DNA from: a virus | Direction: 5' to 3' (one strand) | Length of the DNA: 28,213 nucleotides | IMG/VR virus record: IMGVR_UViG_3300001339_000001 | Location: 1 to 28,213 of that record | Shown here: in pieces, positions 14,651 to 26,917 of the stretch | How the letters are laid out: every line of letters begins with the position of its first letter | How positions within the stretch are numbered: the stretch's first letter is position 1 | Notes under the pieces: generated by a model | What the model saw: the letters and a program-made list of their open reading frames with translations, nothing else | Told to the model about the DNA's origin: nothing | The model's database searches: none | Translations under genes and position numbers: made by a program

Positions 14651-17600
14651 ATGAGCTGGGAGAAGTTAGCTAAACAAATTAGTATAACTCTTGAAAAAAG
14701 CATCTCAGATTTGTTTGACGCAACACACCAACTAACTCGTGGTATAATACCTTCAGCTAAACAAATTAATGATTTCACGAAAAAACATCTTGGTTTTAAG
14801 GCTTTTGCCTACGCACCATCAAGTTTTGATACACCACAAGAATTAGCAAAGCAAACAAAGCAAATGATAGACTTTGGATTTTCAAGCTATGCTATAGATT
14901 TTGTCAAAGAACTCAAAGAACAAGGTGATGTTAATACTTTACAAGAAGTAGCTGACTTTTTATCCAAGAAAATTCAAAACGCTATAGCAAAAAGAAAATT
15001 TGAACAGGTTGTATATCTGTCTGCGGTAGCAGAACAGCTTGACCCAAATTTCCGAGAAAATCTGAAAAAGTATCTATCTGCTACCAAGCAAAACAGCGAG
15101 TTGTTATATGAAGCAATAGAAAAAGCAAGAAACAAAATAAACGAAGTGGAACACGTAACTACGATTTTGAACCTTACTGCACTTGGTCTTGGAGTTAGTA
15201 GCATTTTAGCAAGACCTTTCTTAACTCCGATGCTTAGACTTGCTATTGATACTTTTACTGCTGGAACCCTTGCTGGAAGCGTTGTTGGTGAAATGAAAAA
15301 AGCAGAGATACAAGGTAGAAATCCTCTTACTGCACTCCTTGACTTACCAAACTTTGCTGTAGCTTATGACTTGGTTAGGTCTGTTAGAACCGCACCCACA
15401 TCTCTAAAAGAAACTACCGCAAAACTCATTCTTAATAAACCAACAGAACAACTCATACCAGAAGTCATAGCTGATATAACACCTTCTTTCAAAACAAAAC
15501 TACAAATTACAAGAGACCTTGAAGAAGTGAAAACTGCTTTGACTTTTATAGATAAATCTTTGAGTGTCGGAGAAAATATTAAAGACAACATACTACAAGC
15601 ATTTTACAAACATGCTGGCACCAAGTCTGCTGTTGCTTTTCATAGAATGGTGTCTGCATACTTGCATGACACAAAACTTGCCTCTGAGTTTTCTGCTGTT
15701 GCAAGATATATCTACAACAAAGAAAATGTCAAGGAGGTTTTAAAACGCTACATAAGAGAGGACGGTTCCATCAAAGTCAATGCTGGTGAAGTAGAAAGAG
15801 TTTTGCTTGAATTGTCTAAACAAGACCACGAAATTTACAACTACTTAGCACTGCAAAGAATAATAAGCTTGATGCACGCTATTAACAGAGCACTTGATGA
15901 TGGTGCGGAAGTGATACATGTTAGAAGAACAGGAGGCAGAGAGTTAATTTTCTCGTTTAATCCTCTTGAAACAAAAGTTGATGAGATTATAAAACCGATT
16001 TTTGATGAGTTGGACAAAGAAAACACTCTCACGCTGACTTGGTTGAACAAGAAAGAAAATGTTCCTGCGTATATGATACTCAAACCAGCATATCATCCAA
16101 GCTATGACAACTTTATAATTCTCAGGGCAGAACCACTTGTCGTTGCTACAAAAGAAGGTAAGACTATTGACGAGTTGCTACCTGAACTGAAGAGGTTCTT
16201 TTCCGATGATGAAATTGAGCAGTTGCGAAAGATTGTCGGAGACAGAAAAATACTCTTGCTTGAAGATGAGTATTTTAGTGTGCCTTACCATAACATCTCT
16301 TCAAGCAAAGAGTTTATAAACAGTGCTTTGAGAGTAAGACTTAAACAGAACTTGAAGATTGATGATGACAATGTAGAGTTTCTGTATGGTAAATTTACTA
16401 TCTATCCAAATGCTACACTATTTCCGCACAAGCTTGAAAAGATAGCCGAAAATCTTGAAGAGTTGAAAGGTGTTTTAGAAAACGAGTTGAGGGCTAAAAT
16501 CACAAGAGTGATTGAAACAGCTGGCGAACTTGATGATAAGACTGTTCAAAAAATCATGCAAGCTTTGTTGGGAGCTGAGGATGTAGAAATAGAACTGACT
16601 AAAATTGCCAGACAGATAGAAGAATTAGCATTCAAACAAGCACCTGAAATACACAGAGAAGGTAAAGGTTTTGCAATACTCTTCAAAAACTACGATAGTT
16701 TAGTAGATTACGCATCGTCAAAGGTGTGGAGTAGGTTGTATCCAAACTTAGCTGGTATCAAAAGCTTACGAATTTTGAGAGAGTTCATAGAGAGGAACCC
16801 AAACAAAACTGATATGCAAAAGCTTGTGCTTGATTTCATCAAAACACTTGAAGGCAAGACAGGAAACGAACTGATAGACGCTTTGAAAACTTTTAACCGC
16901 TATCTTGGTTCTGTCTATACAATGTTTAATATACCTATCACTGTTGCAAACTACGGACAATACCTTGCTATAGCTTCTACACTGTTCCCAAGCTTGAACT
17001 TGTTTTCAAAAGCATCGCTAAAACACTTGATGGAAGAAATAAGAATAGCATATAGAGAAGCTGGTGTAAGACACGGACTTTACAAATATCATGCACTTAA
17101 CCCATTTGTGCCGTTGGTTGAAGGTCTTATTCGTTCATCTATCAAAGCAACAATTGATGATGAGGTTGGGTTTAAAGCTGTAATAGATGATTTAGCAAGA
17201 TTTATTACAAAGTTCAATCAAAAAGATGTTGAAATTGTAGCTAAAGAATTGTATGACTTCTACAAACTGAACAAAGAGTTGCTTGTAGATGATTTGGAAC
17301 GAATGATAATCGGTGGAGACTTACGAACACTAAACACTTTGTTTGTAAGACTTGGTCCTGTTAGTACAAATACACTTGAAGCAATAATTTCATGGTATCG
17401 TTTTATTTTCTCTCCTCTCTCGCTCGGCTTACAAGCTACTTACAAATTCTTTACAGACTTAAGCAGAGGAGATGTTAGAGCACTTGGTAAAGGTCTTGTA
17501 TTCTCTTCGCTACTTGCTTTTACAGTTGGAACTCAAGCAGTGCCTTACTTTACTCCTGCTGAAGTTGGTTATAGCTTAGCAAAAGATGTAGCAAACATCA

Positions 17601-18625
17601 TAGCAAAAACGCTTGGTGTAGAAACTCCAGAGATACTTGATGAGAAGAATTTAGGTTATGCTATAAGCAAGAGAATATTAGGTTCATTTGGTATAGAAGT
17701 GCTTGACCCACAATCAAAATACTACCTTTTTGAAGCATCTGGAAGAGAAGTAGCTAAATATCTTGCGGGACAAGACTTGATTGGAGATAATAGGGCTTGG
17801 AATATTGTAGCAAGAGGTTTGAATATCTTACGTATGCTAACAAATGTAAGCGAGGCTGGACTTGTTTCACCCGGTGCAATGTCTTACGATTTAACACTGT
17901 TCTCTCTAATAATTGAACTTGGTAAAAACCTTATCAAAGAGTTGTGGTCTGTAGAACGTGGAGATAAGACTTACGGTGATGTGCTTATGAGGGTGCTACC
18001 AAATCTCATCCCAGCAGGTCGCAGAATGCTTGCCTTGATTGAAGGCAAACCGCTTGTAAAAAGCAATTACGGAGAGGTAAGAGAGTTTTATGGTGTAGGT
18101 AAAGAACTGTCTGAAAAAGACTTCTATACCACAATTGGACTTGCTTGGTATCTTGGATACTTGGCAACATTTTACGATGGTGTATTTACAAACTTTTTCT
18201 TTGACAGTTTAGCCAACTGGTTTGATATAGAACCTGAAAAGTTCAAGAGACCAAAAGAAACTGAATACTACAAGGTTATCAATCTAAGAGACATTAAACA
18301 ACTACAAGACGCCAACCAGTTGAAGTATATGATTGCTATGTTCAAACATTTAGACGATGAAGGTAAGAGGTTTATGCTTGATAGAATGCATAGGCTTGTT
18401 GAAAACAGTTTAACTAATAGGTCTAAGAACTTGGAAACGATTCTAAAGCATTTTGAAAAAGATTTTGAAAAGAAGGAAGAGATACTGAAAAATTACGTTG
18501 AGTTTTACAATTTCGCAAGACAGTATCTCACTCCAGAAAGCCGAGCATATCTTGACCAAAGAGTAAAGTTGCTTATAGATATATACAGAATAGCTAAGCA
18601 ACAGCGAGGAGGTGAAGATGAATGA
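14651..18625 (+). CDS. Large internal virion (ejection) protein, 1324 aa
   Basis: The longest late protein, as expected for the large inner-core protein of podoviruses (the T7 gp16 position), which is ejected and helps build a channel across the envelope. It is mostly helical. Hydrophobic stretches occur near residues 170-213, 755-785 and 913-970, the last (WYRFIFSPLSLGLQATYKFF and a following Ala/Leu/Val stretch) resembling a recurrent segment in large podovirus internal proteins. The C-terminal 100 residues are charged helix. No transglycosylase motif was found in it, so the cell-wall activity may be the separate lysozyme-like gene at the left edge. It starts 2 bases after the previous stop without a ribosome site and overlaps the holin-like gene by 8 bases. 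Confidence 0.7.
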   Translation: MSWEKLAKQISITLEKSISDLFDATHQLTRGIIPSAKQINDFTKKHLGFKAFAYAPSSFDTPQELAKQTKQMIDFGFSSYAIDFVKELKEQGDVNTLQEVADFLSKKIQNAIAKRKFEQVVYLSAVAEQLDPNFRENLKKYLSATKQNSELLYEAIEKARNKINEVEHVTTILNLTALGLGVSSILARPFLTPMLRLAIDTFTAGTLAGSVVGEMKKAEIQGRNPLTALLDLPNFAVAYDLVRSVRTAPTSLKETTAKLILNKPTEQLIPEVIADITPSFKTKLQITRDLEEVKTALTFIDKSLSVGENIKDNILQAFYKHAGTKSAVAFHRMVSAYLHDTKLASEFSAVARYIYNKENVKEVLKRYIREDGSIKVNAGEVERVLLELSKQDHEIYNYLALQRIISLMHAINRALDDGAEVIHVRRTGGRELIFSFNPLETKVDEIIKPIFDELDKENTLTLTWLNKKENVPAYMILKPAYHPSYDNFIILRAEPLVVATKEGKTIDELLPELKRFFSDDEIEQLRKIVGDRKILLLEDEYFSVPYHNISSSKEFINSALRVRLKQNLKIDDDNVEFLYGKFTIYPNATLFPHKLEKIAENLEELKGVLENELRAKITRVIETAGELDDKTVQKIMQALLGAEDVEIELTKIARQIEELAFKQAPEIHREGKGFAILFKNYDSLVDYASSKVWSRLYPNLAGIKSLRILREFIERNPNKTDMQKLVLDFIKTLEGKTGNELIDALKTFNRYLGSVYTMFNIPITVANYGQYLAIASTLFPSLNLFSKASLKHLMEEIRIAYREAGVRHGLYKYHALNPFVPLVEGLIRSSIKATIDDEVGFKAVIDDLARFITKFNQKDVEIVAKELYDFYKLNKELLVDDLERMIIGGDLRTLNTLFVRLGPVSTNTLEAIISWYRFIFSPLSLGLQATYKFFTDLSRGDVRALGKGLVFSSLLAFTVGTQAVPYFTPAEVGYSLAKDVANIIAKTLGVETPEILDEKNLGYAISKRILGSFGIEVLDPQSKYYLFEASGREVAKYLAGQDLIGDNRAWNIVARGLNILRMLTNVSEAGLVSPGAMSYDLTLFSLIIELGKNLIKELWSVERGDKTYGDVLMRVLPNLIPAGRRMLALIEGKPLVKSNYGEVREFYGVGKELSEKDFYTTIGLAWYLGYLATFYDGVFTNFFFDSLANWFDIEPEKFKRPKETEYYKVINLRDIKQLQDANQLKYMIAMFKHLDDEGKRFMLDRMHRLVENSLTNRSKNLETILKHFEKDFEKKEEILKNYVEFYNFARQYLTPESRAYLDQRVKLLIDIYRIAKQQRGGEDE

Positions 18626-19186: not shown

Positions 19187-19484
19187 GTCTCCTAACCTCC
19201 CTTTGTTTTAAACCAAGCACTTTTGCAATAATTTTGTAAGGCACACCAAGTTCTCTTGCCTTACGAATATATTCAATTTTTTGTTCATCAGATACAGTCC
19301 TAAGTTTTTTCCTGAGTGCCTGAGTTTTACCACCTGACCTTTCAAGCTTTTCTTTCCAAAGAATAGGTGCAATATTACAAGGATAGTCTCCTACAATATC
19401 CGCAATTTCGTTGATTGTCAGGTAAAGTTCAGCGTAAAGCTTTTTTACAAGTTCTTCAAGACTTTTCCCACGTATCTCCCACAT
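19158..19484 (-). CDS. Helix-turn-helix DNA-binding protein, 108 aa
   Basis: The ATG at 19484 is preferred to a TTG at 19502 because GAGGTGGAG lies about 10 bases upstream. Residues about 14-45 (LYAELYLTINEIADIVGDYP and onward) and 65-100 (RKARELGVPYKIIAKVLGLKQREVRRLEKSL) both read as helix-turn-helix modules. The second is like sigma-factor or homeodomain-type recognition helices. It lies between the polymerase gene (29-base overlap) and the small nuclease gene. A late-gene activator, repressor or DNA-end recognition factor are all possible; the motif alone does not choose between them. Confidence 0.6.
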   Translation of the reverse strand: MWEIRGKSLEELVKKLYAELYLTINEIADIVGDYPCNIAPILWKEKLERSGGKTQALRKKLRTVSDEQKIEYIRKARELGVPYKIIAKVLGLKQREVRRLEKSLSSRV

Positions 19485-22400
19485 TTGGCTGCTCCACCTC
19501 AAGTTTTATTTTAGCAACCCTATTACCAAACTCTTCTGCTTTTTCAAGACACCAATCCCACGCTTCTTCCATCTTCTCTTTAATCAGCTTAGCTAAGTCT
19601 TGTGCTTCTTTACTGTCTGCTTCCACCACTATCTCATCATGCACAAGATTAACTATCTTAAGGTCTGGTTTTGCTTCCTTGAGTAATACTATAGCTTTCT
19701 TGAACAGTTCCGCACCACTGCCTTGTATTTGATAATTGAGTAAGTCTTGTGGTTTCCACGCACGATATGTTCTGTTAAGCCATGTTTCGTTATCCACATA
19801 CTCGTTGTATTTAAAACGTTCATATGCTACTTGATGCTGTTCTGCGATTTTTGTATAATACTTCTTCCACTTTCTGACTATTTCATATGCTTGTTCCTCT
19901 GTCATATTAATACCATTCGTTATACAATATTCTGCGAAACCTTTTGGTGCAATACCATAAATAAGTCCAAAATTCGCAGATTTTCCAATTTGCCTTTCCT
20001 CCTTGCCTACCTCTTCTATGTTCTTTTCAAACAGTATTGATGCGGTAAGTTTGTGAAGGTCTATGCCTTGCTTAAATGCCTCAATAAATTCAGATTCATT
20101 CCAGATTACCCCTGCAAGTCTTAACTCTATCTGAGGAAAATCTGCAGTAATAAGCCTTTTGTCTTCTGTATCAAAGCCTATGAATTGTCTAAGTCTGCGT
20201 GGTATCTGTTGGAGATTTATATCGGAGCAAGACATTCTGCCTGAGGGCGCCGTTGTAGTAAAGAAGTTGCCATAAACTCTACCACCACTTCTTTTAGCTA
20301 TATCATAGAGGTCTTTTGCGAAAGCAAGAGATTTCTCCACTTGTCTTGCTTCAAGCACCCTTTTAGCCATTTCGTTGCCTTGCAAGGCTAAATCCATCAA
20401 CACATCTTTTGAAGAACTATCTACTCTAAAGAATTTCGCAGTTTGTTTTGGAGAGTTGTAATTGAACGGTATCTCTTTTTGCATCTGATTGCGAAGTTGA
20501 GTTAGTCTGTGTATTTCTTCTTCTAAAGCTTTCAATTTCACTGGCATACCATTTTGCGATGTTTCTACTACAATCTTTTGTGCTTGTTGGTCAAGCTGAT
20601 AAACAAGACTGTTAAGTGTGCTTGATGTTAGCTGTTCATAAAGCAAGTGTGGTATGTATGCATCAAGTGAAGCATAAAGAAGTTGTTCGTTGCTAAATGA
20701 ATGAAATATGTTGTTTTTAAAAGTCTCACGGATTTTTGTCTTGTCCATCGGATATTCTATACCAAGCAAATCTCGTGCCACATCATCAAGCCTAAAACCT
20801 TCACCCTTGGTTCCGTTTTGCTTAAACCTTTCATGATGCTGAACTTTTATTGCAAGCTGAACATCCACAATCTTTTTGTCTCTAAGTTGTTCGTATGTGT
20901 AGCCAAGAGCCCTTAAGTCAAAATCAAGACCCCAACCTCTTATTTCTGAGAACTTTAGAAGCCACTCTTTGAACCTTGTTGGTTTTTCTTTGAGAAGGTT
21001 AAGGCAATAAACTTTACGTTCGAAGTGTGGTTGATAGATGCTTGCAAGGACTGGTCTATCTCCGTCTGTTTCCAAATCAAAGTAAATTGGTTCGTTGAAT
21101 TTTGTTGGTATTTCATCAACGCTATCGCAAAGTACTGGTTCTACTAAAGCTTTTGGTTGAGGTTTAAGAATTGGTTTTGGTATATTCATCCTCTTAGGTA
21201 GAGATAGTCCATCCTCTCCTGTAAAGTGTTTTTCTAACTCATCTTCTTCCTCGTTGTCTTCATTTTCTTTATTTTCGTAATCAAACTCTTCTACTGGTGG
21301 TAAATTATCGTTTGGTGGTGTATTATCGTCATCATCTCCACTTGGTAAGTCTTCATCTGGTGGTGTATTATCACCGCCATTGTTATCTATAAAATCTTTC
21401 AAATCCTCAAACTTAAAACTTTCTACAAAAAGATTGTGCAACCTGCGTAGTCCTGCTTCACCATGTATAGAAAGCATAAGTTCTGTAAAAACTTCAAGAA
21501 TGCTTTTGTAGAATTCTGGATGGTGTTCTTTGATATAGGTTAGTCTTTCGTATTCACGAGTAACCATACCTTCAAACCAAGCTGGATTACGTCCTTCTAC
21601 AAAAATTGAACCAAGATAAACAAAAGCTTTTTTGTTTTCATAATACTTCATAAACAACAACTTCAAATACGGTTCAATATCTGTTGTTGGGACTTGCACA
21701 CCTGCAATATCAATAAGTTTTTTTATTGTCAATCCTCTAATTGTAGTTTTCTTTATCGGATTATTAGATGCATTGTAAAGCCCATCCGCAAGATCTCTCA
21801 GATAATCAATGATTTTGTTTAGCTTACTCTCTTCTTTTGGAAGAAGAGTATCATAAAACTTTGCAAACACATTACGAATATACTGCTCAAGTATAACAAA
21901 AACATTAGCTTTTTCCTCATCAGACAAACCAAGAAACTCTAAAAACACATGAATTGACGCATAAATAAGCTTCAAGTGATTGTCAAGAGACTTCACAATT
22001 CCGCGCAAAACTTTTGACCTTTTTTTGTCAAATTCATTTCTAAGGATTTCAACATCTTTATAATACTGAGCTAAAGCTTCTATATCTACATGATTTTCTA
22101 TGAAATCAATGAGTTTAAAAATGTAACCGTGGTTGTATTTGAGAATCGGTAATATCTCGTTTGTGTAAAATTCTACCAAAGCAGTGTTTTTTTGCTTTGG
22201 TAACTCATCAACATCAAGCACTATGCTTCTACGATAGAGACCTTCTCTGTTTTTACAAAGAACCTCTACAGCTAATGCGTTCTTTTCGCCACTAAACACA
22301 ACAGGAACCTGAATTGGGCTAAATCTCTCGTATGCAGTATCTTTTGAAGCCTCGTTTGCTATTGCATATATCATGTTCGCTATTTCTTCCTCTTTGTCTT

Positions 22401-24279
22401 TTCTCATCCTAAATTCATCAAGTGGAAGAGGCATGCCAATATTTCCAAATTCTCTGAGAATCTTTGCCGTTGTGGTTTCAGTAATTTGTATAACCTGTGG
22501 TGTGCCATACAGTGCGGATGCAATACGAAGTCTTGTAGTTTTACCTGTTGTAGTAAAACCACGTAAAAAGATTAGCACATTTGGTTCTGAGCTGGCTACA
22601 AACTTATCTCTGAAATACTCTTTCGTGATGTGTGAAATGAAGTGTCCGAGTAGTATAAGCATAATTGGATCTTTTGCTTTTACAACTCTGCGATACGCGT
22701 TTTTCCACGCTTCAAAGGAACCATTGACAATTGGTATGTAGTAGTTAAGTCTGTTTGTTCTATCCGACCACATGTAGAAATTCAAGTCTTCTGCCCTAAA
22801 TGAGTCCATGTTTGCTACTACCATATCCCACTTTCTCTTCAAATCGTTATATTTGTAGCCCGCCTTGTCTATTTCTCTCACTCCTCTTGCAAGTTGGAAA
22901 AGCGTAAGATAGTTCGTGAGAAGTTTCTTGAAAAGCTGTTGATTGTAGAAAGTCAAAACTATAAACTCGCTAAAATCTGTATTTGCTGAAGCAGTAAGGA
23001 CATAAGGAATAAACTCGTATTTATCTCTGTAGAAAATTTTGATGTATTTTTCCTTGCGGTTTGGTTTATTGTAAAGCACCACGTCTTCTATTTTGAAGAG
23101 TTCGCAAACAGGCTCGTTTGTGTCTTCTTTTACCCAAAGGTTTCGTTTTTCATCTACTTTGAAACCTTCCAGCCGTGTCTCAAGATAAAAGAGGTCTTTA
23201 AACCAGTTGGAGATTAGTTTTCTCTCTCCATATTCATCAAATATCCACCTTGCATATTGACAGTTCTTGCATTTTTCATCTGCGTCCACTACACGTCTAT
23301 GCACAAAAGAACAAGAGAAATAAGGCAAGGTTTCTCTATCTTTAAGCATCCATTTCAGAGTATTGCGAAATTGTTGTTCCGGTGCAATTACTACTTTACC
23401 TTTCCAAAATTTTGATTTTTGAAGAAACTCCTGTTTGTATTCCTCTTTTTGCGTAAGAACATACAAAAACGCATACTTCCAAGACAAAATAAACCACTCG
23501 TTGTATGTATGCGTTTCCCACTTTTCTTCTAAACTTCTTATTACAGGACACGCATTCCAAAGTGTAAGTGCCAATCCTTCCGATATTTGAGAAATTGGTA
23601 TTCTGCTATATTCTCTTCGTTTAACAGGAAGCCCGTTTATCAATATATCAGTATCGTAGTATTTGTTCATTTCTTCAAGAAGTTCTTTTTTCGTATAAGG
23701 TTCCCGTAATTCGTAAATTTCGTTGCTGTATCTTGTTGCAATACTGTATGTGTGGTCTATCTTATCTGCGTGTTTGCGAAGATTTGACTTAAGATCTTCA
23801 ACGTAGCTGTGTATCATGTAAAGAATTTCTTTATCATCACATTCTATAAAATCCTGCGTTATGTAGAAGATATGCCAACCTTTAATAGTTCTAAGAATGT
23901 GTGTTGGTTGTATAGGTAACAATTCTCTGTTATTGACAATCTCAAGTATTTGGTCAAGCTTTAATGGTTCGTCTATGTCAATTCGTATAGCTACCTTTGT
24001 CCGCTTAAAAAAGTCTTGTGCATTTCTTTTTTCAGCAAAAAGTGAAAGATAATACCTGTTGCGTTCTCTTGCGAGTTTGCAATATTCTTCAAACTCTTCT
24101 ACCCACTTTTCCTTGTTTGTTTCATTCCATCTGAGAAAAGCGTCCTTTATCTCCTTGAGTTCTATACCTTCAGGTGTTTGTGTTAGAACAAGCACATAAT
24201 CTGGAAAAGTATAACCATACTCATCCTCAACTATCAAACCTATCTTGACAAGCAGTTCAAAAAATGATATACTCCTCAT
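19456..24279 (-). CDS. polA: Primase-helicase-exonuclease-DNA polymerase A polyprotein (Pyrovirus type)
   Basis: A 1607-residue replication polypeptide. Residues about 75-185 show AEP primase motifs: D101-x-D103, G-W-H136 and I-D175. Four cysteines follow at 244, 323, 337 and 340. A DUF927/SF3-like ATPase has Walker A G574 to T581 (K580) and Walker B LDEF (D621). Residues about 963-1030 are an acidic linker with a repeated D-N-T-P-P-x-D/E motif. The C-terminal ~587 residues match the PyroPhage 3173 polymerase, by recall. They contain the 3'-5' exonuclease (YFDLETD, D1068/E1070; YASLDAY) and the polymerase motifs A (TADFPQIELR, D1380), B (K1433 in RQIGKSANFGLIYG) and C (VHDEIVVE, D1548). The exonuclease site looks intact, so proofreading is expected. 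The ATG shares ATGA with the upstream nuclease stop and follows GGAGGAGGAACAGCT. Confidence 0.95.
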   Translation of the reverse strand: MRSISFFELLVKIGLIVEDEYGYTFPDYVLVLTQTPEGIELKEIKDAFLRWNETNKEKWVEEFEEYCKLARERNRYYLSLFAEKRNAQDFFKRTKVAIRIDIDEPLKLDQILEIVNNRELLPIQPTHILRTIKGWHIFYITQDFIECDDKEILYMIHSYVEDLKSNLRKHADKIDHTYSIATRYSNEIYELREPYTKKELLEEMNKYYDTDILINGLPVKRREYSRIPISQISEGLALTLWNACPVIRSLEEKWETHTYNEWFILSWKYAFLYVLTQKEEYKQEFLQKSKFWKGKVVIAPEQQFRNTLKWMLKDRETLPYFSCSFVHRRVVDADEKCKNCQYARWIFDEYGERKLISNWFKDLFYLETRLEGFKVDEKRNLWVKEDTNEPVCELFKIEDVVLYNKPNRKEKYIKIFYRDKYEFIPYVLTASANTDFSEFIVLTFYNQQLFKKLLTNYLTLFQLARGVREIDKAGYKYNDLKRKWDMVVANMDSFRAEDLNFYMWSDRTNRLNYYIPIVNGSFEAWKNAYRRVVKAKDPIMLILLGHFISHITKEYFRDKFVASSEPNVLIFLRGFTTTGKTTRLRIASALYGTPQVIQITETTTAKILREFGNIGMPLPLDEFRMRKDKEEEIANMIYAIANEASKDTAYERFSPIQVPVVFSGEKNALAVEVLCKNREGLYRRSIVLDVDELPKQKNTALVEFYTNEILPILKYNHGYIFKLIDFIENHVDIEALAQYYKDVEILRNEFDKKRSKVLRGIVKSLDNHLKLIYASIHVFLEFLGLSDEEKANVFVILEQYIRNVFAKFYDTLLPKEESKLNKIIDYLRDLADGLYNASNNPIKKTTIRGLTIKKLIDIAGVQVPTTDIEPYLKLLFMKYYENKKAFVYLGSIFVEGRNPAWFEGMVTREYERLTYIKEHHPEFYKSILEVFTELMLSIHGEAGLRRLHNLFVESFKFEDLKDFIDNNGGDNTPPDEDLPSGDDDDNTPPNDNLPPVEEFDYENKENEDNEEEDELEKHFTGEDGLSLPKRMNIPKPILKPQPKALVEPVLCDSVDEIPTKFNEPIYFDLETDGDRPVLASIYQPHFERKVYCLNLLKEKPTRFKEWLLKFSEIRGWGLDFDLRALGYTYEQLRDKKIVDVQLAIKVQHHERFKQNGTKGEGFRLDDVARDLLGIEYPMDKTKIRETFKNNIFHSFSNEQLLYASLDAYIPHLLYEQLTSSTLNSLVYQLDQQAQKIVVETSQNGMPVKLKALEEEIHRLTQLRNQMQKEIPFNYNSPKQTAKFFRVDSSSKDVLMDLALQGNEMAKRVLEARQVEKSLAFAKDLYDIAKRSGGRVYGNFFTTTAPSGRMSCSDINLQQIPRRLRQFIGFDTEDKRLITADFPQIELRLAGVIWNESEFIEAFKQGIDLHKLTASILFEKNIEEVGKEERQIGKSANFGLIYGIAPKGFAEYCITNGINMTEEQAYEIVRKWKKYYTKIAEQHQVAYERFKYNEYVDNETWLNRTYRAWKPQDLLNYQIQGSGAELFKKAIVLLKEAKPDLKIVNLVHDEIVVEADSKEAQDLAKLIKEKMEEAWDWCLEKAEEFGNRVAKIKLEVEQPNVGDTWEKS
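21300..21385 (-). repeat. Repeated acidic Pro linker between helicase and polymerase
   Basis: The plus-strand 15-mer TGGTGGTGTATTATC occurs twice about 45 bases apart, encoding two copies of a D-N-T-P-P-[DN]-[ED]-x-L-P unit. It sits in a region that is nearly all Asp, Glu, Pro, Gly and Asn, so it probably marks a flexible hinge between the two halves of the polyprotein. Confidence 0.7.
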
Positions 24280-24983
24280 AGCTGTTCCTCCTCCTTCTCC
24301 TTTTTTATTATACCACGAAAATATTCACAATGCTTCTTGTAATGACAAAACTGACAGTAGCCAGTCAAAAGTCCTGTTGGTGGAAACTCTTGAACCTCAA
24401 GCAGTCTTGCTACAGATTTTACAATAGCCAAAACCTCTCGCTTTGGTATAAGCTGTATCTGAAACGTCTCAACTTTGTCTGGAAAAACATAGTGTATGTG
24501 ATAAGTGTCTGCATCATCCGTGAGAGAGTAGACTGAAAGCTGAAAAACATGTTTGAAGTCTGGAAGCGGTCTGTCGTGTCTCGTAGTCTTAAGTTCTATC
24601 ATCTTGCGTCTTTGTGTTAAAATGTCAATGTATCCAATAATAATTACATCATCTATCTCAAGTTGAAACTCTTTTTCCGTTGCAAGCACGCCTTCTTCCG
24701 CTATCCTCTCAAGCGTGCTTTCGTAGGTATTGTAGAATTGAATAGCTTGTTTAAGCACATCTGGTGTATGCCCGTCTTGTTCAAAAAACTCTTGTGTAAC
24801 TATACCGATTGCTTCTTCTTTTGTGTGTCCTTGAAGTCTCAATTCAACCATTCTGTGAAATATAGAACCCGTTTTCATAGCTGGTGTTTCCTCCTTCATT
24901 TGAAGTCTTAATTGCAATGCATACGGACACCTTGAAAAGAGAAGTATCTGCGATGCTGAAACAGTTATCGGTCTTGGTTCCAC
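24276..24983 (-). CDS. Cas4/AddB-type Fe-S PD-(D/E)XK exonuclease, 235 aa
   Basis: A RecB-family nuclease with an iron-sulfur cluster. The cysteines C19 (SRCP), C210, C213 and C219 (YCQFCHYKKHC) match the one-plus-three arrangement of Cas4 and the AddB nuclease domain. Catalytic residues visible are H43 in GSIFH, D120 in GYIDIL, E130-x-K132 in IELKTTR, and the QLSVYSL helix (Q-x-x-x-Y). Such enzymes resect DNA ends for recombination or process replication ends. GTG at 24983 is the start, with AGGAGG 8 bases upstream; only 3 bases separate it from the helicase stop. There are no cas genes here, so a replication or recombination role is the natural reading. The end carries a -10-like element for the polymerase gene. 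Confidence 0.85.
   Translation of the reverse strand: MEPRPITVSASQILLFSRCPYALQLRLQMKEETPAMKTGSIFHRMVELRLQGHTKEEAIGIVTQEFFEQDGHTPDVLKQAIQFYNTYESTLERIAEEGVLATEKEFQLEIDDVIIIGYIDILTQRRKMIELKTTRHDRPLPDFKHVFQLSVYSLTDDADTYHIHYVFPDKVETFQIQLIPKREVLAIVKSVARLLEVQEFPPTGLLTGYCQFCHYKKHCEYFRGIIKKEKEEEQL
24307..24312 (-). promoter_or_regulatory. Extended -10 element ahead of polA
   Basis: On the minus strand GTGGTATAATA contains TG-G-TATAAT, an extended -10 box, 27 bases upstream of the polA ATG with the ribosome site in between. The same 11-mer forms the -10 region of the perfect promoter at 27218. No good -35 hexamer is at 16-18 bases, as expected for extended -10 promoters. Confidence 0.4.
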
Positions 24984-24986
24984 ATT

Positions 24987-26168
24987 TCAAGCCTCCTGCG
25001 TCCTTCTTAAATATTCTACTACATTTCGTTTGCTTTTCAAGATACGTAGCACTGCTTTGTCAATTCCGTTTTGAACCAAGTAATAGACAACCACTTTTTT
25101 GTCTTGTCCTGTCCGATAAACCCTACCTATCGCTTGTTCAAGGTCTGTATATTTTAGAGGCAACGATGCAAAAATAATATTTTTGTAATTCCGCTGTAGG
25201 TTTGCACCCTCTCCCATTGCATATGTGGAAACAATTGGTTTATCCTGCTTTGTTATAACTTGCATCCGATACTCCGTAGGTGTTTGACCAGTAATGCAAT
25301 ACACCTTGTTCTCAAACCTCTCCTTAACTTTATTCACAAACTCTACAAACAAGCTAAAAACAATCGTATTTGGATTTTCAGACAAAAAGTCAATCACAAA
25401 CTCAAACTTTTCTTTTGTCAAAGCTGAAGCACGATACTCTTTTATGAAATTTGCAAGTTCATAGTTGCTAAGTTCGTATTCTAATTCAACTGGTTGTAAT
25501 TCAACAGTAATTTCTTGCAACGGTGGTAGTTCCAACACATCCTCCCTTCTTACAACGTGAGCATATTTTTCAAACCATTGCTTTAGTTCCTGCTTAAATT
25601 CAGGTCTCAACAAACCTCGCGGTTTAAAATACTCATCAAGTTCGAAATAAGCATTTATAAATTGGCTGTAGCTTTTGTATTTTTGGAACATTTCATCCCA
25701 TGGATTTATCACTTTAAGCTGAGCATAGATTTTATGAAACATGTCTATTGGAGTTCCTGACAAAAGCAAAACTTCTTTGATTTTTCTTTCTATGCGTAAT
25801 TGTATTGCTTTACGCGTCCATTGTGTTTTGGTATAACTCAAACGATGAGCCTCATCAAAAACTACTAAATCAAATTTGCTAAAATCGTTTATCTTATCTC
25901 TGAACCACTCATAAGTAACAATCTCAATGTTTATGTTGAAGTATCTGTTATCATGTAACCAAGACTGATGTGCTGATTTCGGTGCCACTACTAAAACTCT
26001 ATTAAAACCATGATATTTACATATGGCTAAAGCACCAGCAGTTTTGCCACAACCCACTTCCCACGCAAGATACTTTTTCCGTGGGAACAGGTTGACAGCC
26101 TGTTCTTGGTGTTTAAAAAGTTTGATTTCCGACATGGTTTGTGATATATTATATTTTACTTCTACCAT
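24987..26168 (-). CDS. SNF2/DEAH-type superfamily 2 helicase, 393 aa
   Basis: An ATP-driven DNA translocase or helicase. The N-terminal RecA-like lobe has a Q-like HQEQAV at 20-25, motif I VGCGKT at 38-43, motif Ia VVAPKSAHQSW, motif II DEAH at 105-108 and motif III LLSGTP. The C-terminal lobe has VFSLFVEFVNKV, TYAMGEGANLQ (motif V) and QAIGRVYRTGQDK (motif VI), typical of SNF2-like proteins. The length is minimal with no extra domains. Start ATG at 26168 follows AAGGAGGTGTTGCC. With the adjacent Fe-S nuclease it could form an end-processing or branch-migration pair, as in other phage replication cassettes. Confidence 0.9.
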   Translation of the reverse strand: MVEVKYNISQTMSEIKLFKHQEQAVNLFPRKKYLAWEVGCGKTAGALAICKYHGFNRVLVVAPKSAHQSWLHDNRYFNINIEIVTYEWFRDKINDFSKFDLVVFDEAHRLSYTKTQWTRKAIQLRIERKIKEVLLLSGTPIDMFHKIYAQLKVINPWDEMFQKYKSYSQFINAYFELDEYFKPRGLLRPEFKQELKQWFEKYAHVVRREDVLELPPLQEITVELQPVELEYELSNYELANFIKEYRASALTKEKFEFVIDFLSENPNTIVFSLFVEFVNKVKERFENKVYCITGQTPTEYRMQVITKQDKPIVSTYAMGEGANLQRNYKNIIFASLPLKYTDLEQAIGRVYRTGQDKKVVVYYLVQNGIDKAVLRILKSKRNVVEYLRRTQEA

Positions 26169-26218: not shown

Positions 26219-26917
26219 TCAAAGTTCAAGAGGTGTATCGTCTAAATCGCTGTCAGTTGTGTTTTTGAAAAGTGAGTTATTGTATTGTGTTCTAAACCGC
26301 TCAAATTCGGACAGGTACTCATAAGCCACTTTAAGAACATCATCAGAAACAATCTCAACAGACTTCACAGACACTACTTTTGGTTCAGACCATATTTTCA
26401 TACCACTTTTTTGCTTTACCAACTTCACATCTAACTGATGCCCAGTCAAAGTTAAGATGTTTTCTTCCCTCATGAAATTAATCAGCACTTTCAACGCCGA
26501 CCTCTTTGCCTCCCACACTGCCCTTAGTAATTCTTTTGAAACTATTACAATAGGAAGAACCCACGAGTTAATCACAGAGAATTCAGCTTCATCCAGTCTC
26601 TTCAATGCTTCAGCAAGCAGGTTTCCTGTAAATACTCCATTCATGCTATACAATACCAGAGCCTTAGACCGTTCCCTTGGTGTATAAATTTGCGATTTGA
26701 GAACTAAATTTCCGTTTGAATTAAATACCGTAGTTTGCATATACACCTTCACAACAAATAATGAAATCTGGTTTCCAAGTTCTTGTCCCTCTAACACCCA
26801 TACAGTTTTATCGTGGTCTATTTTTAACTGCGGTGTTGGGTAGCTTAAAACTTGAGTAGAGCTTTGCTTTACTTCCTCTTGCAAAATTTGTTTCCAAGCG
26901 CTTCTGATGTCTTGCAT
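26219..26917 (-). CDS. Putative single-stranded DNA-binding-like protein, 232 aa
   Basis: Unrecognised by family. Residues about 30-100 are beta-rich (KTVWVLEGQELGNQISLFVVKVYMQTT, then GNLVLKSQIYT), compatible with an OB-like fold. The middle is alpha/beta, and the last 12 residues are acidic and end in hydrophobics (DSDLDDTPLEL), which recalls the acidic tail of SSB proteins that recruits partners. It lies directly upstream of helicase, nuclease and polymerase genes, where a phage SSB would be expected. The start is ATG after AAGGAGGTGTAGCC. The tail and context are suggestive only. Confidence 0.55.
   Translation of the reverse strand: MQDIRSAWKQILQEEVKQSSTQVLSYPTPQLKIDHDKTVWVLEGQELGNQISLFVVKVYMQTTVFNSNGNLVLKSQIYTPRERSKALVLYSMNGVFTGNLLAEALKRLDEAEFSVINSWVLPIVIVSKELLRAVWEAKRSALKVLINFMREENILTLTGHQLDVKLVKQKSGMKIWSEPKVVSVKSVEIVSDDVLKVAYEYLSEFERFRTQYNNSLFKNTTDSDLDDTPLEL

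Follow-up and report, generated by a model that had tools for sequence, protein, structure and literature searches.

How DNA synthesis is primed is the question raised by the replication genes of the virus record IMGVR_UViG_3300001339_000001 (28,213 bases, analysed as a whole and hereafter called the window). A separate primase gene had been reported as not visible there and, consistent with this, a PHROGs search with 18 other ORFs of the window called none of them a primase. Toprim_2 (PF13155) and the DnaG zinc-ribbon (PF01807) were each found in none of six records, several of which may be fragments. The earlier note had proposed that an archaeo-eukaryotic primase (AEP) domain is hidden at positions 23730–24060, corresponding to approximately residues 74–183 of a 1607-amino-acid ORF. 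Our analysis indicates that the front part of this giant replication polyprotein from a hot-spring phage is very probably an archaeo-eukaryotic-type primase; it is highly likely that residues ~75–230 make up a divergent AEP domain which primes together with the DUF927 helicase and family A DNA polymerase (PolA) parts of the same protein.

A member of the same family, the 1,606-residue Pyrovirus polyprotein of Thermocrinis Octopus Spring virus (OS3173 Pol), combines DUF927, an exonuclease and PolA, and its amino-terminal motifs were said to suggest "primase and/or helicase function" (PMC7689252). In its available text, that account names DUF927 and COG5519, without an AEP domain or active-site residues, and a 2023 review, likewise in its available text, mentions nothing but DUF927 helicase domains at the N-terminus (PMC10423840). 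A search of titles, abstracts and text passages in the open literature returned no statement of an AEP domain in Pyrovirus. The AEP assignment and the active-site residues described here are an addition to the published suggestion.

Results

Architecture of the polyprotein and its relatives

The polyprotein is encoded at 19456–24279 on the minus strand (ORF list, translation and Pfam), as are all window features below unless stated otherwise. Its domains run in the order AEP-like domain, helical/cysteine region, DUF927 helicase, acidic linker, 3'–5' exonuclease and PolA. The DUF927 helicase domain (residues 450–649, 22333–22932) matched PF06048 above the cut-off (E = 2.8e-10) and carries GxxxxGKT at residues 574–581; G579, K580, T581, D621, E622, R683 and R684 are unchanged in all four aligned sequences. 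The exonuclease domain (residues 1063–1219, 20623–21093) matched PF01612 (E = 3.2e-06), and the PolA domain (residues 1248–1605, 19465–20538) matched PF00476 (E = 1.6e-57), with motifs A, B and C all found. Pfam gave no credible match N-terminal to residue 450 of the polyprotein. The upstream neighbours are a PD-(D/E)XK nuclease of the same replication block (24276–24983, PF12705, E = 8.7e-16) and an SF2 helicase (24987–26168, Helicase_C and SNF2 matches).

Relatives were retrieved from viral contigs via a PolA motif and then with an alignment query. Five distinct viral records were aligned: the window; 3300005853_000017 (L002, with copies L003, L005, L008 and L012); 3300025462_000002 (L006 and L011); 3300034737_000034 (L007 and L009); and 3300035661_000134 (L010 and L034). 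Contig L004, which holds the end of PolA only, was left out of the record count. The polyprotein is fused in two of the five records, the window and L002, whose N-terminus is 80% identical to that of the window; the PolA part of copy L003 is 90% identical. In the other three (L006, L007 and L010), a primase-helicase of 953–960 residues and a PolA of 546–548 residues are encoded by neighbouring, separate ORFs behind the nuclease ORF. A split into primase-helicase and PolA has likewise been reported (PMC7689252). In the five-row alignment, identity between the fused and unfused clades is 25–26%. The gene boundary of the unfused phages falls at the position of the acidic Pro/Asn-rich linker region of the window protein (residues 961–1050, 21130–21399, from sequence).

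The unfused primase-helicases (L006:3977–6844, L007:1139–4021 and L010:6010–8871) end in an acidic tail with a final Asp-Phe (DIDF, EVDF and EVDF, respectively), and the fused proteins have their acidic linker where this tail stands. Such an Asp-Phe acidic tail resembles the protein-binding tail of bacterial SSB. The gap between the primase-helicase and PolA ORFs measures 258 bases in L007 (4022–4279), 261 in L010 and 10 in L006, and the ORF after PolA in L010 (10790–11830) has near its start an SGGKDS motif that, by eye, resembles PAPS-reductase or DndC-type enzymes. The replication block also encodes a protein of 224–232 residues in the window (26219–26917), L006 (9502–10176) and L010 (1860–2555), the homology of the three being judged by size and place only. 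The L006 and L010 proteins have acidic tails closing with VEF, and the window copy gave no family match better than E = 0.01; by position and tail, this protein is a candidate SSB. Elsewhere, the window encodes a 1324-residue ORF on the plus strand (14651–18625) that had no PHROGs match at E up to 0.001, and L004 has a 1321-residue ORF.

AEP motif residues are conserved at low overall identity

The motifs, their conservation, and the gene and domain order can be read directly from the window and its relatives. The residues singled out previously, D101-x-D103, G-W-H136 and I-D175, are all present at these numbers in the minus-strand translation. AEP motif I is defined as hhhDhD/E (PMC5862659), and the segment I100-D101-I102-D103 agrees with it apart from R99. 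Of the hhDhD pattern claimed for the window protein, hDhD is thus matched; the strict form is not, because R99, two residues before D101, is not hydrophobic and breaks the run. Both aspartates of D101-I102-D103 (23971–23979; D101, 23977–23979; D103, 23971–23973) are kept in all five records. So is motif II (sxH, here G134-W135-H136), which lies within K133-G134-W135-H136 (23872–23883; H136, 23872–23874).

For motif III (hD/E), we considered two aspartates. D172 (23764–23766) is kept in 5/5 records, with Ile before it in three and Ala in two. D175 (23755–23757), the choice of the earlier note, is Asp in four and Lys in L010. Since D172 is invariant and D175 is not, motif III is probably D172, and D175 was set aside on conservation. 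A point for D175 is its place inside a predicted strand (residues 173–176) of the AlphaFold model, D172 lying just before this strand. The alignment of homologues thus bore out the expected conservation of D101, D103 and H136, and that of D175 in 4/5 records only.

The spacings had been described as close to those of the pRN1 ORF904 prim-pol, which has the same types of motif (we used its D111, E113, H145 and D171). This is true for motifs I–II (35 residues here vs 34) but not for motifs II–III, which are 39 (D175) or 36 (D172) residues apart vs 26 in ORF904; nor was there significant profile similarity to pRN1. Shuffling the first 420 residues 5000 times produced the spaced pattern hDhD..sxH..hD in 25 cases, and shuffling the whole protein 1000 times produced it in 35. 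The motif pattern alone is therefore weak evidence, being only mildly unusual, and these shuffles lend something to the view that the likeness to AEPs arose by chance, another RRM-like or ferredoxin-like domain having acquired fortuitous DxD and GWH motifs. Conservation over the five records is stronger evidence than the pattern: K95, R99, D101, D103, K133-G134-W135-H136, D172, C323, C337 and C340 are unchanged in every row, and invariant motif residues speak against a chance resemblance. In a comparison of the window with L002, the core shows dN = 0.12 with saturated dS, indicating purifying selection; dN/dS is 0.05 in the DUF927 part, and the stretch 192–232 is the least conserved (22/41 identical).

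The same residues bear on a second alternative, that the domain derives from an AEP, has stopped priming and instead serves the DUF927 helicase by binding DNA or the origin, with host DnaG or RNA polymerase making the primers. Such a descendant would fit with the ability of phages to use host primases, with a sequence so divergent that Pfam misses it, and with the loss of D175 in L010. However, an inactive enzyme should have lost some of its catalytic residues, and D101, D103, D172 and H136 are all kept in 5/5 records at ~26% identity, so we regard this alternative as unlikely.

Profile searches place the domain in no named AEP family

A profile search had been put forward as a check on the AEP reading, and neither Pfam nor unbiased hhalign comparisons gave a significant match to an AEP or PrimPol family. 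Pfam at E up to 10 with five members returned no AEP family and no PF09250 match, and we rejected membership in Prim-Pol proper (PF09250, pRN1-like) on the absence of a profile match in 5/5 members. Searches with the N-terminus against PDB sequences found no AEP (the weak rows were unrelated proteins), nor did NCBIfam with four primase-helicase proteins; PHROGs with the N-terminus also gave no AEP, the sole primase families falling on the DUF927 region. No hit was obtained by tblastn with residues 1–660 or the 960-residue L007 protein in 50,697 phage and 72,556 plasmid records, and genome scans for relatives found none. By hhalign, similarity to nine NrS-1-like and five pRN1-like sequences did not reach significance (P = 0.2–0.3 for the pRN1 set), and pairwise alignments with pRN1 and pORA1 scored no higher than those with shuffled sequences.

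Viral contigs were scanned for stretches that could encode TxKGWHxF, and 24 came up. Motif I, sought as hDxD/E no more than 60 residues upstream, accompanied the peptide in frames of the four relatives and of two further contigs, L038 and L042, whose proteins Pfam identifies as Prim-Pol (E = 1.5e-25 and 8.3e-24, respectively), each with PriCT_1; among the frames outside the family, Pfam covered these two. As the scan selects for the motif, it shows that the combination marks AEPs, not that the proteins are close family relations. For the same reason, we rejected as independent AEP evidence a profile score of P = 1.9e-4 obtained with a set that included L038 and L042: both had been picked by KGWH, and the score depends on motif II, falling from 33.0 to 11.4 when KGWH was masked. 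Without the two proteins the set gave P = 0.23; none of 200 column shuffles reached a score of 33.

The fold predicted for the window protein resembles the AEP catalytic unit

AlphaFold, run from the five sequences, gave a window model with a mean pLDDT of 56.6 on this shallow alignment (52–79 in the ten-residue blocks from 91 to 170). The AEP-like catalytic core (residues 95–191, 23707–23997, from the AlphaFold model and VIA-align) is predicted to comprise a strand (95–102), a helix (108–116), two strands (127–131 and 134–141), a helix (150–166) and a strand (173–176); motif I falls on the first of these strands, and KGWH on the one in the hairpin. This beta-alpha-beta-beta-alpha-beta arrangement is the element order of the AEP catalytic unit. 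Foldseek alone found nothing significant in the PDB, no row lying under E = 0.12, the value of its first row, RepB' primase. We then aligned Foldseek's 1000 best PDB chains with VIA-align, and the best six of the 998 rows aligned were all AEPs: S-2L PrimPol (Z = 6.5, rmsd 3.4, 111 residues aligned), four CAPP Prim-Pol entries (Z = 5.5–5.8) and LigD polymerase (Z = 5.1). The first non-AEP had Z = 4.9; all scores lie under 8, below the level where a match speaks for itself, and families missing from these matches, such as PriS, were not counted as negatives. The viral-structure database BFVD returned the protein's own family at the top (E = 2.0e-60). Next came a protein with no name (E = 1.6e-06) and a phage DUF927 protein (E = 1.8e-06); several entries labelled primase, Prim_Pol or replication protein scored less well.

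The L007 model (mean pLDDT 52.3) shares its early elements with the window model. It aligned best with an unrelated protein (Z = 5.0), and CAPP came 34th (Z = 3.5). The check on the predicted fold is thus favourable in the window model, with its AEP-like element order and six leading AEPs, and not in that of L007. This last result, and the alignment of ribosomal S6 and ACT-type folds to the window model at Z of approximately 4.0–4.9, again suit a chance resemblance. Against it stand the AEP rows at the top of the window model's list, the neighbouring DUF927 helicase and the two Prim-Pol proteins that the motif scan picked out, and we judge it quite unlikely.

C-terminal to the core, a predicted helical bundle (residues 234–311, 23347–23580; AlphaFold blocks with pLDDT 67–89) is possibly a PriCT/PriL-like accessory module; region 240–342 of the L007 model aligned weakly with yeast primase p58C (Z = 4.0). 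The cysteines C323, C337 and C340 (23260–23313), kept in 5/5 records, may form a putative zinc site between primase and helicase. The spacing of this triad differs between the fused and unfused clades.

Collectively, motifs I and II kept in 5/5 records at ~26% identity, the order of core elements, the AEP alignments and the DUF927 helicase next to the domain support the AEP reading. On motifs, predicted fold and context, the profile tests having failed, we place the domain in the AEP superfamily and in no named AEP family. The fold is supported by prediction; from the whole we infer primase activity.

Discussion

Priming could also reside in the PolA part itself, as in staphylococcal CCPol-MP, with the N-terminal domain merely assisting. 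A-family polymerases capable of de novo priming exist, some beside DUF927 helicases (PMC7581432, PMC10061031). CCPol is described, in the available text, as being without exonuclease domains (PMC7581432), whereas here an exonuclease and the polymerase are fused, and priming by PolA would leave the conserved AEP motifs unexplained; we consider it very unlikely.

We return to a priming AEP domain, for which we infer the following residue roles, primer chemistry and hand-over. D101, D103 and D172 would be the metal ligands of the primase domain and H136 would bind the incoming nucleotide. The domain would work with the helical, cysteine-containing region and the DUF927 helicase: the helicase would open the DNA, the primase would synthesize a short primer on the strand so exposed, and PolA, tethered by the flexible acidic linker, would extend and proofread it. 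In the unfused phages, the primase-helicase and PolA would act as two proteins from neighbouring genes.

Comparable layouts have been described. The PrimQH and All3500 families of mobile elements have an AEP followed by a DUF927 helicase, as here (PMC5862659), and the window protein differs in adding exonuclease-PolA at its C-terminus. GP55 of lactococcal phage 1706 joins helicase, AEP-type primase, 3'–5' exonuclease and polymerase in one protein, a coexistence that its authors call unprecedented (PMC12205980); its polymerase is of family B and its domain order is different, whereas the window protein has a family A polymerase and DUF927. PREX of apicomplexan plastids combines primase, helicase, 3'–5' exonuclease and PolA in one polypeptide (PMC8113025, PMC6523293), and its PolA is reported to be related to viral PolA (PMC7689252). 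AEP-DUF927 fusions and PREX-type primase-helicase-PolA proteins are thus already known. The primase-helicase of PREX is of the DnaG/T7 gp4 type, and its front half would therefore be unrelated to that of the window protein. We lean towards the view that the window encodes a complete AEP-DUF927-exonuclease-PolA replisome in one 1607-residue protein, and that the layout of apicoplast PREX was invented independently around related polymerases.

The C-terminal part of this family already serves as a proofreading polymerase that is thermostable and has reverse-transcriptase activity (PMC10423840). Should the N-terminal part prove to be an active, thermostable primase coupled to the helicase, the full-length polyprotein could both start and copy DNA with no primers supplied. 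The named residues, D101, D103, H136 and D172 vs D175, make the primase reading directly testable, and the fused and unfused clades are a natural experiment on the effect of fusion. One protein may carry four replication activities, those of a primase, a helicase, a proofreading exonuclease and a DNA polymerase, and an active primase would explain how these phages prime replication.
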